Positions 7,955 through 10,401 of a stretch of 64,000 nucleotides of DNA are shown one piece after another. The notes below the pieces were generated by a model that saw only the letters and a list, made by a program, of their open reading frames with translations, ran no database searches and was not told where the DNA came from. Positions within the stretch are counted from its first letter, which is position 1; every line of letters begins with the position of its first letter. The stretch covers positions 1-64,000 of the forward strand of contig NZ_JAHKSH010000005.1 of assembly GCF_019720895.1 (NCBI RefSeq), given 5' to 3'. The translations under genes were made by a program, and so were the position numbers. The stretch comes from Microbacterium salitolerans. Lineage in GTDB: Bacteria > Actinomycetota > Actinomycetes > Actinomycetales > Microbacteriaceae.

Positions 7955-9108
7955 GAGGAGTATGCGCTGTTCTCGTGAACGTAGGCGTGCGTGAGGTCGT
8001 TGGTCATGATCGTCGCCGTCGCCTCGCCCTGAAGCAGGTCGATGACCACGTGGGTGTCGCGCGGGGCGAGGTCCACCTCTTCGCGCGGACGGTCGGGTCC
8101 GCCCTTCGTGCAGACACGCACGCCGTTCATCGTCACGTCGACGTCGTACGGATCGAACTGCGCGGATGTCGTGCCGATGGCCGCCAGCACGCGCCCCCAG
8201 TTGGGGTCGTTCCCGAAGATCGCGGTCTTGAAGAGATTGTTTCGCGCGACGGAGCGGCCGACCTCGAGGGCCTCCTCCTCGGTCGCGGCGTGGAGGACCT
8301 CGATGCGGATGTCGTGACTCGCTCCCTCGGCGTCGCGCATGAGCTGCGCGGCGAGGTCGAGGCAGAGCTCCGTGAGCTCGTGCTCGAACTCGGCCGCGTC
8401 GGGGACGATTCCCGACGCCCCGCTCGCGAGGAGCGTGACCTGATCGTTCGTCGACATCGCACCATCGGAGTCGAGGCGGTCGAAGCTCATGCGCGTCGCC
8501 GCGCGAAGGTGTGCGTCGGCCTGATCGGGGCTCAGCTCGGCGTCGGTCGTGACGACGACGAGCATCGTCGCGAGGCCGGGCGCGAGCATTCCCGCGCCCT
8601 TCGCGATGCCGCCGATCGTCCAGCCGCTCCGCGAGCGGACCGCGGTCTTCGGGACCGAGTCGGTCGTCATGATCGCGGCGGCCGCGTCGTCGCCGCCCTC
8701 GGCCGACAGCGCGCCGATCGCGTCTTCCGTGCCGCTCAGCACCTTCTGGCGGAACACATCGTCGCCGATGCCGATGAGTCCCGTCGAGCAGACGATGACG
8801 TCGACGGCGCTCACGTCGAGCAGCTCGGCCGCTCGCTCAGCCGTCGCGTGCGCCGTCTGGAATCCGAAGGATCCCGTGAAGCAGTTCGCTCCGCCGGAGT
8901 TGAGCACGACGGCCTCGACGCGGCCGTCCGCAATCACCTGCTCGGACCACATGATCGGGTTGGCCTTCGCGCGGTTCGACGTGAAGACGGCGGCACCTGC
9001 CTTGTGCGGTCCACGGTTGACGACGACGGCCACGTCGGGCCGGCCGGTGCTCTTGAGGCCCGCAGCGACGCCCGCCGCCTCGAAGCCCTTCGGTGCGGTC
9101 ACGCTCAC
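7951..9108 (-). CDS. argJ: Bifunctional glutamate N-acetyltransferase / amino-acid acetyltransferase
   Basis: ArgJ recycles the acetyl group from N-acetylornithine to glutamate, making the pathway cyclic. The 385-residue precursor has the self-cleavage site in [14 protein letters not shown]: cleavage is expected between Ala180 and Thr181, the new N-terminal Thr becoming the nucleophile. Whether it also uses acetyl-CoA (bifunctional type) cannot be told from sequence alone. Coupled to argC and argB by four-base overlaps. Confidence 0.95.
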
Positions 9109-10148
9109 GGCGCCACTCCATTCACGGTCAGCGCGCGGTCCTCAGGAAGACCGAGCGCGATGTTCATCGATTGGACGGCCGCCCCGGCCGTGCCCTTCGC
9201 GAGATTGTCGACAGCCGTCACGACGACGACGCGGTTCGCGGCGCGATCGATCGCCAGACCGATGAGTGCGGTGTTGGCCCCCAGGACGTCCGCCGTGCGC
9301 GGCATCTGCCCTTCTGGCAGCAGCTGCACGAACGTCTCGTCGCCGTAGGCGGACTCCCACGCCTCTCGGATCTCGGAATCGGACGCATCGCCGGCGATCG
9401 GCGCGGACGTCGTCGCGAGGATCCCGCGCGCCATCGGCACGAGCACAGGCGTGAACGAGATGCGCGGATCCGACGCGCCTGCCTGGCGCAGGGCCTGCTG
9501 GATCTCGGGGATGTGACGGTGCGTCCCGCCGACTGCGTATGGGGACGCCGTTCCCATGAGCTCCGCCCCGAGCAGATGGGTTTTGAGAGCCTTGCCTGCG
9601 CCGGAAGGCCCCACCGCGAGGACGCTGACGACATCGGACGCGTCGATGACGCCCGCCGCGACGCCGGGCGCCATGCTGAGCGACACCGTCGAGGCGTTGC
9701 AGCCCGGCGCAGCGATGCGCGTCGCACCGACGAGGCGGTCGCGTTGCCGGCCCGTCGCCGTGATCAGCTCGGGGACCCCGTACGTCCACGGCTCGTGGAA
9801 GGATCCGCCGTAGAACGCGTTCCAGTCGGCCTCGCTGGTGAGGCGGTGGTCGGCGCCCGCGTCGATCACGAGGCTCGCGTCGCCGAGCGCGTCGGTGTAC
9901 TGGCCCGACTGGCCGTGCGGCAGCGCCAGAACCACGATGTCGTGCCCCGCGAGGACCTCGGGCGTCGTGGGCTGGAGGACGAGGTCGCGCAGCGACCGCA
10001 GGTGGGGCTGATGCGCGATGAGCGGATCGCCCGCACTCGAGTGCGCGGTGACCGTGCGGATCTCGATATCGGGATGCCCGGCGAGCAGGCGGAGGACCTC
10101 GCCGCCCGCATAGCCGGAGGCACCGGAGACGGCGACCGAATACGTCAT
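9105..10148 (-). CDS. argC: N-acetyl-gamma-glutamyl-phosphate reductase
   Basis: NADPH-dependent reduction of N-acetylglutamyl phosphate to the semialdehyde. The 347-residue protein has the Rossmann motif GASGYAGGE at 9-17 and the catalytic cysteine in APGCNAS (Cys150). It is the first enzyme gene of the operon. Its ATG at 10148 follows AAGG at a normal distance and is preceded by a structured 60-base stretch and an Arg-rich leader ORF (listed separately). I saw no convincing ArgR box upstream. Confidence 0.96.
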
Positions 10149-10168
10149 GACTTCTACCTTATTGACTC

Positions 10169-10208
10169 GTGAACGGCTTCCGGGACGGCGGGCCGCTCAC
10201 GCGCCGTC
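10169..10208 (-). promoter_or_regulatory. Candidate argC attenuator: two mutually exclusive hairpins
   Basis: On the transcript, segment A (GACGGCG, 10208-10202) can pair with A' (CGCCGTC, 10190-10184). Segment B (GTGAGCGGC, 10200-10192) can pair with B' (GCCGTTCAC, 10177-10169) over nine bases with one G-U. The order A-B-A'-B' is interleaved, so only one can form. A starts inside the leader-peptide stop codon, so ribosome position would decide between them. No U run follows B', so control of argC translation or Rho-type termination is as likely as intrinsic termination. Confidence 0.45.
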
Positions 10209-10308
10209 AGGCACGCAGGCTGCAGCGACCCGCCGAGAGTCGGCGGACGCGCAGGCGCAGCACGGAGACGCTCGGAGCGAGCGTCGAATCCATCGCAGGC
10301 GCGGTCAT
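10207..10308 (-). CDS. Putative 33-residue Arg-rich leader peptide of the arg operon
   Basis: A 33-codon frame ending in RLRVRRLSAGRCSLRA, with six Arg codons (CGC, CGC, CGC, CGA, CGC, CGT) in the last sixteen. The ATG is exactly six bases after TACGCT, the arrangement of a leaderless actinobacterial transcript; an in-frame ATG follows at codon 6. It ends 58 bases before argC, and its stop codon is part of the first of two alternative hairpins. I know of no family it belongs to. Role inferred: sensing charged tRNA-Arg. Confidence 0.5.
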   Translation of the reverse strand: MTAPAMDSTLAPSVSVLRLRVRRLSAGRCSLRA

Positions 10309-10314
10309 GCCGCG

Positions 10315-10335
10315 AGCGTAGCACGACGCGACGAC
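10315..10335 (-). promoter_or_regulatory. Leaderless promoter of the arg leader/argC
   Basis: TACGCT at 10320-10315 fits the actinobacterial -10 consensus TANNNT and sits six bases before the leader ATG. A weak -35 (TTCGAC) lies 15 bases further upstream. That part is inside the inverted repeat that terminates pheT transcription. Confidence 0.5.
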
Positions 10336-10391
10336 GTCGAACCCGACGTGGCGCGCCGAATGCGGCGCCCCTCGTCGGGTTCGACGTCGTC
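10329..10391 (-). terminator. Terminator after pheST
   Basis: A perfect 20-base inverted repeat (10372-10391 with 10329-10348; core GACGTCGAACCCGACG) with a 23-base loop that itself contains GGCGC/GCGCC. It starts 10 bases after the pheT stop. It is one of the longest stems in the window and reaches into the arg promoter region. Confidence 0.8.
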
Positions 10392-10401
10392 GATCGGATC
10401 G

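Follow-up and report, generated by a model that had tools for sequence, protein, structure and literature searches.

A likely ribosome-mediated arginine attenuator encoded by a leaderless-type leader ORF upstream of argC in Microbacteriaceae, a family that seems to have lost ArgR

The argCJBDF operon of Microbacterium salitolerans is probably controlled by a ribosome-mediated arginine attenuator, which would act from a leaderless leader ORF and in place of ArgR, the usual regulator of arginine genes. The window that contains it is the whole stretch of DNA analysed, 64,000 nucleotides in length (contig NZ_JAHKSH010000005.1, positions 1 to 64,000). At the sequence level, comparison with relatives brings out the leader ORF, its Arg codons in a kept frame, a helix between two segments named A and A', a hairpin between segment 1 and A, and the absence of ArgR and of an ARG box. 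We infer the transcript start, the stalling of ribosomes, the direction of control and its output. The original prediction had already read this region as arginine attenuation; the leaderless-type Arg ORF, the Arg codons, the exclusive pairings and the missing ArgR speak for this reading, whereas the exact A arm and the generality of a further helix, B:B', did not stand.

All elements lie on the minus strand. The argC gene (9105..10148) is the first of argC-J-B-D-F, gene names that we take from sequence recognition and from the original prediction rather than from a family search, and an argC homologue was found in 190 of 199 family genomes. The spacer of 253 bases between argC and the end of its upstream neighbour pheT (10402) holds TACGCT (10315..10320), assigned as a -10 element by its sequence and its spacing in relatives, then six bases and the ATG (10308) of a leaderless-type leader ORF. 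This ORF (MTAPAMDSTLAPSVSVLRLRVRRLSAGRCSLRA, 10207..10308 including the stop codon) comprises 33 codons, with six Arg codons among the last 16; promoter and ORF are both present on this strand as first described. Segment 1 (CCGCCGA, 10240..10246), at the end of the Arg run, includes the CGA codon 10242-10240 and pairs with 10236-10230. Segment 2, or A (GGCGGGTCGCT, 10224..10234), lies within the ORF and pairs with segment 3, or A' (AGCGGCCCGCC, 10187..10197). B (GTGAGCGGC, 10192..10200) overlaps A' and forms a hairpin, seen in some relatives only, with segment 4, or B' (GCCGTTCAC, 10169..10177), which lies eight bases 5' of AAGG. Finally, TAAGGT (10156..10161), seven bases 5' of the argC ATG, is likely to carry in this AAGG the Shine-Dalgarno core of argC, and also fits a -10 box.

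No Rfam 15 family, T-box and riboswitches included, matched the window at its gathering score, and sub-threshold matches (e.g. guanidine-III, 25.1 against 36 bits) fell mainly on a hairpin behind pheT. There, 10329-10392 forms a near-perfect inverted repeat with long paired arms (-59.4 kcal/mol, z -8.7) and no terminator-like T-run, with sub-threshold matches to mir-598 and guanidine-III; it is probably the pheT terminator or a dispersed palindrome. A search for further copies of the leader in the genome found none, the next-best match of the model having an E-value of 2.56 against 2.5e-12 for the leader itself. No second Arg leader was recognised at argG among four short upstream ORFs, and the stretch upstream of argH was judged by eye only.

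Among named argC loci, those closest to the window's own belong to Microbacterium and Microbacteriaceae, at 85-86% identity at best, and we therefore call the family of the compared genomes Microbacteriaceae. The sample consists of 169 distinct argC upstream regions of this family, the window's own included: the 79 loci nearest to the window (80 minus L057, whose contig ends too soon), and 90 regions from other family genomes in 69 genera (30 loci from the search and 60 fetched, out of 190 genomes with argC). The 169 regions are not all independent, two of them (L002 and L032) looking like one genome, and tests were therefore run on non-redundant subsets (n=71, 41 or 29). Upstream of argC, the leader is found in 132 of the 169 regions (78 of the 79 nearest loci and 54 of the 90 others), after three false detections (L027, L111 and L126) were removed by hand from an automatic count of 135. 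It occurs in 40 of the 69 sampled genera, two of the 40 being mixed. Most relatives thus have the predicted ORF and its Arg codons, but 29 of the 69 genera do without them. A detector asking for TANNNT at a gap of 6 or 7 and at least four Arg in 16 residues was positive in 129 of the 169 family regions, in 0.4% of dinucleotide-shuffled family regions and in none of 61 argC regions of other families. A looser rule (gaps 5-9, at least three Arg) picked up one of these 61, which were drawn from 132 matching genomes of the order outside the family, the first 21 being the best-scoring loci, some with uncertain start codons. A further model, R1, matched 19 of 297 genomes of the order, all from the window's family; it missed G296, whose argC locus L202 carries the leader, and its count is therefore not a measure of prevalence.

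Among the 132 leader-bearing regions, TANNNT precedes the leader start at gap 6 in 111 and at gap 7 in 18, that is in 129 of 132, a promoter spacing that would be compatible with a leaderless start. The promoter also shows a conserved -35 element, GATTTGC (up to 1.15 bits), which is weaker in the 41-member family set.

In the leader peptides, 38% of the last 16 residues are Arg, against 8.5% of the rest, and the head of the peptide is not conserved. Summed over 71 non-redundant leaders, Arg codons in the tail number 425 in frame, compared with 153 and 203 in the other frames. Moreover, the phase from the start codon to the A motif is the same in 133 of 144 start/motif pairs, despite 30 different distances, in a test independent of the ORF, A being found by its motif alone and the start by the promoter pattern alone. 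The comparison of upstream regions that the original prediction had proposed does reveal conserved Arg codons: counting back from the codon that holds the first base of A, the second codon (10242-10240 in the window) encodes Arg in all 71 non-redundant regions and is CGA in 70 of them. CGA accounts for 26% of the Arg codons in leaders, compared with 2.1% in the argC genes of 80 loci and 4.8% across eight genes of the window. Selection on this CGA may concern either its decoding or its part in the 1:2 hairpin. The leaders thus carry codons of the pathway end product towards their downstream end, in a conserved frame, although the substitution test is weak: in 36 disjoint pairs, the codon differences in frame comprise 84 synonymous and 271 other ones, and those out of frame 63 and 281, and 79 and 271. 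This in-frame synonymous bias is only slight and counts against the attenuator reading. Three leader ORFs (L067, L079 and L080) contain a similar in-frame insert in mid-ORF (..RFLSERSE(T/S)K..), behind which the Arg run is still in frame; the insert looks like a dispersed repeat.

In the window, segment 1 and A form a hairpin of 7 bp (CCGCCGA:TCGGCGG, 10246-10230; -11.3 kcal/mol), as good as which none of 200 shuffles folded. The stretch from A to A' (10236-10187) reaches -33.5 kcal/mol (z -3.18, equalled by 2 of 200 shuffles). A (10234-10224) pairs there with A' (10197-10187), and can alternatively pair with the Arg-codon segment 10246-10240. Against shuffles, the mean z over 71 relatives is -1.78 for 1:2 and -3.80 for A..A', compared with -0.59 for a control at the start of the ORF. 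The A:A' helix also covaries. In an alignment of 50 regions, hand-picked from 69 (the 19 omitted being mostly long inserts or close kin, and including the divergent L132, L141 and L151), 85.1% of the cells are paired and seven of 11 pairs show changes on both sides. None of 500 alignment shuffles reached the covariation score or the percentage paired, and 21 of 500 reached seven pairs with both-side changes; the score is 0.246, against 0.053-0.125 for slid versions of the helix. Furthermore, an alignment-free test in which each A was paired with its own or with a swapped A' gave z -6.1 (n=41), -8.9 (n=71) and -4.7 (n=29). Among the comparison pairings, A with B' and the segment before A with A' gave values around zero (z 0.1 to -0.8), A' with the Arg run or with the segment upstream of that run gave slightly positive ones (z 0.8 to 1.8), and the Arg run with B' (z -2.2, -2.6) and segment 1 with A (z -1.8, -2.8) were mildly negative. 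The A arm originally proposed, GACGGCG at the stop codon, pairs no better than with swapped partners (z +2.0, in the 20 non-redundant regions, the window among them, that have their stop codon beyond A), and must give way to the conserved A inside the ORF.

The hairpin B:B' is present in the window as had been claimed (10200-10192 with 10177-10169; -17.1 kcal/mol, z -3.74, equalled by none of 200 shuffles). Across relatives, its partner swap gave z -5.0 (n=41) and -3.9 (n=71), but -0.5 in the strictest set (n=29), and z -1.8 (n=41) and -2.6 (n=71) when B was taken outside the A' core; the stability of the segment from A' to the Shine-Dalgarno in 71 relatives has a mean z of -0.67 or -0.74, depending on the span folded, against -0.59 for the control. 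As a family-wide partner helix, B:B' is therefore unsupported (z -0.5 in the strict set, mean z -0.67), and it is best taken as a local addition, strong in the window and not general. Compensatory changes, which had been expected in both stems, thus concern A:A' with the corrected A, and not B:B' in the strictest set. Mutually exclusive pairings do exist, but the alternation of A:A' with B:B' put forward at the outset is not the general switch. Since 1:2 and A:A' are stable family-wide and B:B' is not, the general switch would be segment 1 or A' competing for A. The two helices 1:2 and 2:3 share A and are hence mutually exclusive, and in the folding predictions a masking ribosome acts on them as in an attenuator.

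With ribosome footprints masked, the predicted probability of A:A' in 41 family representatives is 0.72 with no ribosome, 0.74 with a ribosome stalled at the first Arg codons, and 0.01 once the ribosome is at the stop codon; the corresponding values for the window are 0.00, 0.69 and 0.29. The contacts of B:B' rise in the representatives from 1.45 (stalled) to 4.97 (at stop), and in the window they amount to 13.66 without ribosome, 4.10 stalled and 4.82 at stop, the last two hardly differing. The energy needed to open the argC ribosome site differs on average by only 0.2-0.9 kcal/mol between states, and in the window it is the stop state that has the more open site. These model results fit a control in which starvation favours A:A' and A:A' means on.

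We propose that RNA polymerase would start at or next to the leader ATG, and that ribosomes would begin on the leaderless end. When charged tRNA-Arg is scarce, a ribosome would stall early in the Arg run and leave A (10234-10224) free to pair with A' (2:3), and argC would be expressed. With plentiful arginine, the ribosome would reach the stop codon and cover A, so that A' and the C-rich RNA behind it would stay free. In the window, the free A' region could then form B:B' immediately ahead of the ribosome site of argC, and in other family members the free C-rich RNA may be an entry site for Rho; in both cases argC expression would fall.

The attenuator would stand in a family that seems, from genome searches, to have lost ArgR. 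The ArgR C-terminal domain (PF02863) was found in none of 299 family genomes, with eight of 14 control genomes positive, and in 268 of the 297 genomes of the order; of the 29 order genomes without a match, all 20 among those listed belong to the window's family. PF01316 was not found in the window's own genome. Near the argC start of other families, a TGTATAGTTATGCA-like site with at most three mismatches occurs in 46 of 61 regions, and by eye it sits over a leaderless-type -10. The pattern was derived from these other families themselves, and we take it to be the ARG box by its likeness to the ArgR box. At the same tolerance it is found in none of the 169 family regions, 132 with and 37 without leader. 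The original prediction had seen no ARG box ahead of argC, and the search for a conserved ArgR box that would explain control likewise found none. Control of argC by ArgR is thus ruled out by the missing protein (0 of 299; no PF01316) and the missing site. Six genomes of the order outside the family (G349, G442, G468, G491, G504 and G514) gave no ArgR match and probably lack ArgR too; one of them, G349, is a 0.8-Mb genome without argC match.

Leader-less members of the family do not carry the ARG-box-like site, and 29 of 69 genera therefore manage with neither. Eleven of the leader-less regions (L027, L113, L116, L120, L123, L124, L129, L142, L148, L161 and L166) show a start of the leaderless type, in which TAGATT or TACATT is followed by argC after 6-7 bases, and have no ARG-box-like site. 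In two others (L111 and L130), an A' stretch resembling GGCGTCGCCG and TAGGGT precede argC, with no ORF and no A found, as if the leader had been deleted. In a tree of argC proteins with 90 family and 8 outgroup rows, the family forms one side of a branch (SH-aLRT 99), and leader-bearing rows occur on both of its large sides. A quick method counted at least 13 changes of the leader label, three of them forced by strong branches, in a tree with 40 of 95 inner branches unresolved. We read this as an early gain followed by many losses, noting that a count of changes cannot tell gain from loss.

Several alternatives bear on how the leader would act. The first concerns TAAGGT before argC, which suits a -10 box as well as a Shine-Dalgarno core, so that a second, leaderless argC mRNA is possible; the leader would then only add to a constitutive supply. 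We hold this to be slightly less than an even chance. TANNNT occurs at this site in 120 of the 132 leader-bearing regions, 126 of the 132 boxes lying 6 or 7 bases from the ATG, and at gaps 6-9 before argC in 26 of the 37 leader-less regions; L111 and L130 keep the A'-like stretch without the ORF, and other families have their ARG-box-like site over a leaderless-type -10 (by eye). However, no conserved -35 precedes the argC box, while the leader promoter has GATTTGC. Moreover, in the 12 exceptions to TANNNT, AAGG or GAGG is kept although T1 or T6 has changed, which speaks for TAAGGT acting as a Shine-Dalgarno sequence.

Within the attenuator reading, we consider two outputs, argC translation and Rho-type termination, to be about equally likely, each on its own somewhat improbable. 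If translation is the output, B:B' or another fold by the argC ribosome site would hinder initiation and stalling would relieve it, a tentative proposal. In the window, B:B' ends eight bases before AAGG and is very stable, and across relatives B and B' pair better with their own partners than with swapped ones (z -5.0, n=41; -3.9, n=71). A T-rich tract is missing in the 132 regions: no 8 bases hold more than five T, nor more than four in 130 of them, in keeping with the U run noted as absent from the start, and no terminator-like site was found in the leader. An intrinsic terminator, of the trp/his type with a 3:4 hairpin and U-run, is thereby rejected, B:B' moreover not being general. Against translation, the signal of B:B' is missing from the strictest set (n=29, z -0.5) and is weaker outside the A' core. 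Furthermore, compared with shuffles, the segment from the Shine-Dalgarno to argC+20 is a little more open (mean z +0.29), and the predicted openness of the ribosome site hardly changes and goes in the wrong direction in the window. Folding thus does not clearly predict argC translation as the output, which the original prediction had put forward.

Termination by Rho, for which our confidence is equally limited, would need only 1:2 and 2:3, the conserved helices. With arginine, A would be masked, and the RNA from there to the start of argC, long and C-rich, would be open to Rho; on stalling, A:A' would fold most of it away. Between A' and the Shine-Dalgarno, all 71 non-redundant regions have more C than G (median C/G 1.83), compared with 19 of 71 upstream of the leader promoter, and Rho has been proposed for Cys leaders of Actinobacteria in the available part of PMC1262725. 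However, C also exceeds G in other leader segments (in 46-55 of 71), and in a GC-rich genome such a bias is weak evidence.

That a GC-rich spacer merely holds an accidental Arg-rich ORF and hairpins is extremely improbable: the high GC, the unconserved leader head and the weak synonymous bias would suit chance, but this is refuted by comparison, with 0.4% detections in shuffles, 0 of 61 in other families, covariation of A:A' and a kept phase.

An arginine leader at argC in Microbacteriaceae was not reported among the matches listed in the literature searched. Leifsonia xyli is a member of this family. It is included in the genome list of a comparison of amino-acid leaders in Actinobacteria, which, in the part available, describes no conserved RNA structure upstream of arginine operons (PMC1262725). 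A close likeness is to Cys leaders. Mycobacterial poly-Cys short ORFs (Canestrari et al. 2020, by title) are leaderless, as the argC leader would be. Like the argC leader, Cys leaders have a run of their pathway's own codons near the stop and lie upstream of a biosynthetic operon (Canestrari et al. 2020, by title; PMC1262725, in part), and those of Actinobacteria are described without terminators, no conserved terminator hairpin being given (PMC1262725, same part). Unlike them, the argC leader has an Arg run and no Cys run, occurs in a different family and coincides with an absent repressor; in this comparison with the excerpted sources, it is for the argC leader that a covarying A:A' helix is shown.

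The trp/his attenuators and the ilvB1 attenuator of M. tuberculosis (PMC13236596, in excerpt) resemble the proposed argC attenuator in their regulatory codons and in that the position of the ribosome picks the helix, a ribosome at the stop codon masking segment 2. The argC leader differs from both in its leaderless-type start, in having no U-tract terminator and in a 3:4 helix that is not general. Moreover, unlike in trp, A:A' in the family dominates already without ribosome (0.72), the window's value being 0.00. In Salmonella orf34-speF, pausing at consecutive Arg codons of the leader changes downstream mRNA folding, as proposed here, and both Rho and sequestration of the ribosome site are involved, according to the part of PMC6386406 available. 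This system differs in serving a polyamine gene of gamma-proteobacteria and in sensing at Arg codons 12 and 13 of 34 (PMC6386406, same part), and its likeness to the argC leader is one of description.

Thus sensing by Arg codons in a leader, as at speF, and leaderless Cys leaders were already known, and an arginine leader at argC adds a variant, which would extend the leaderless-ORF attenuators from cysteine to a second amino acid. It also offers a direct test of how leaderless leaders work without an intrinsic terminator. We tentatively suggest, with rather less than even confidence, that the family swapped its arginine repressor for a cis-acting, leaderless, U-run-free attenuator, in which TAAGGT would be both the ribosome site of a regulated long mRNA and the -10 box of a basal leaderless argC mRNA. 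At the level of families, the repressor with its box and the attenuator are distributed in a complementary manner, which would make the arginine genes of Microbacteriaceae a clean natural case of regulatory replacement.
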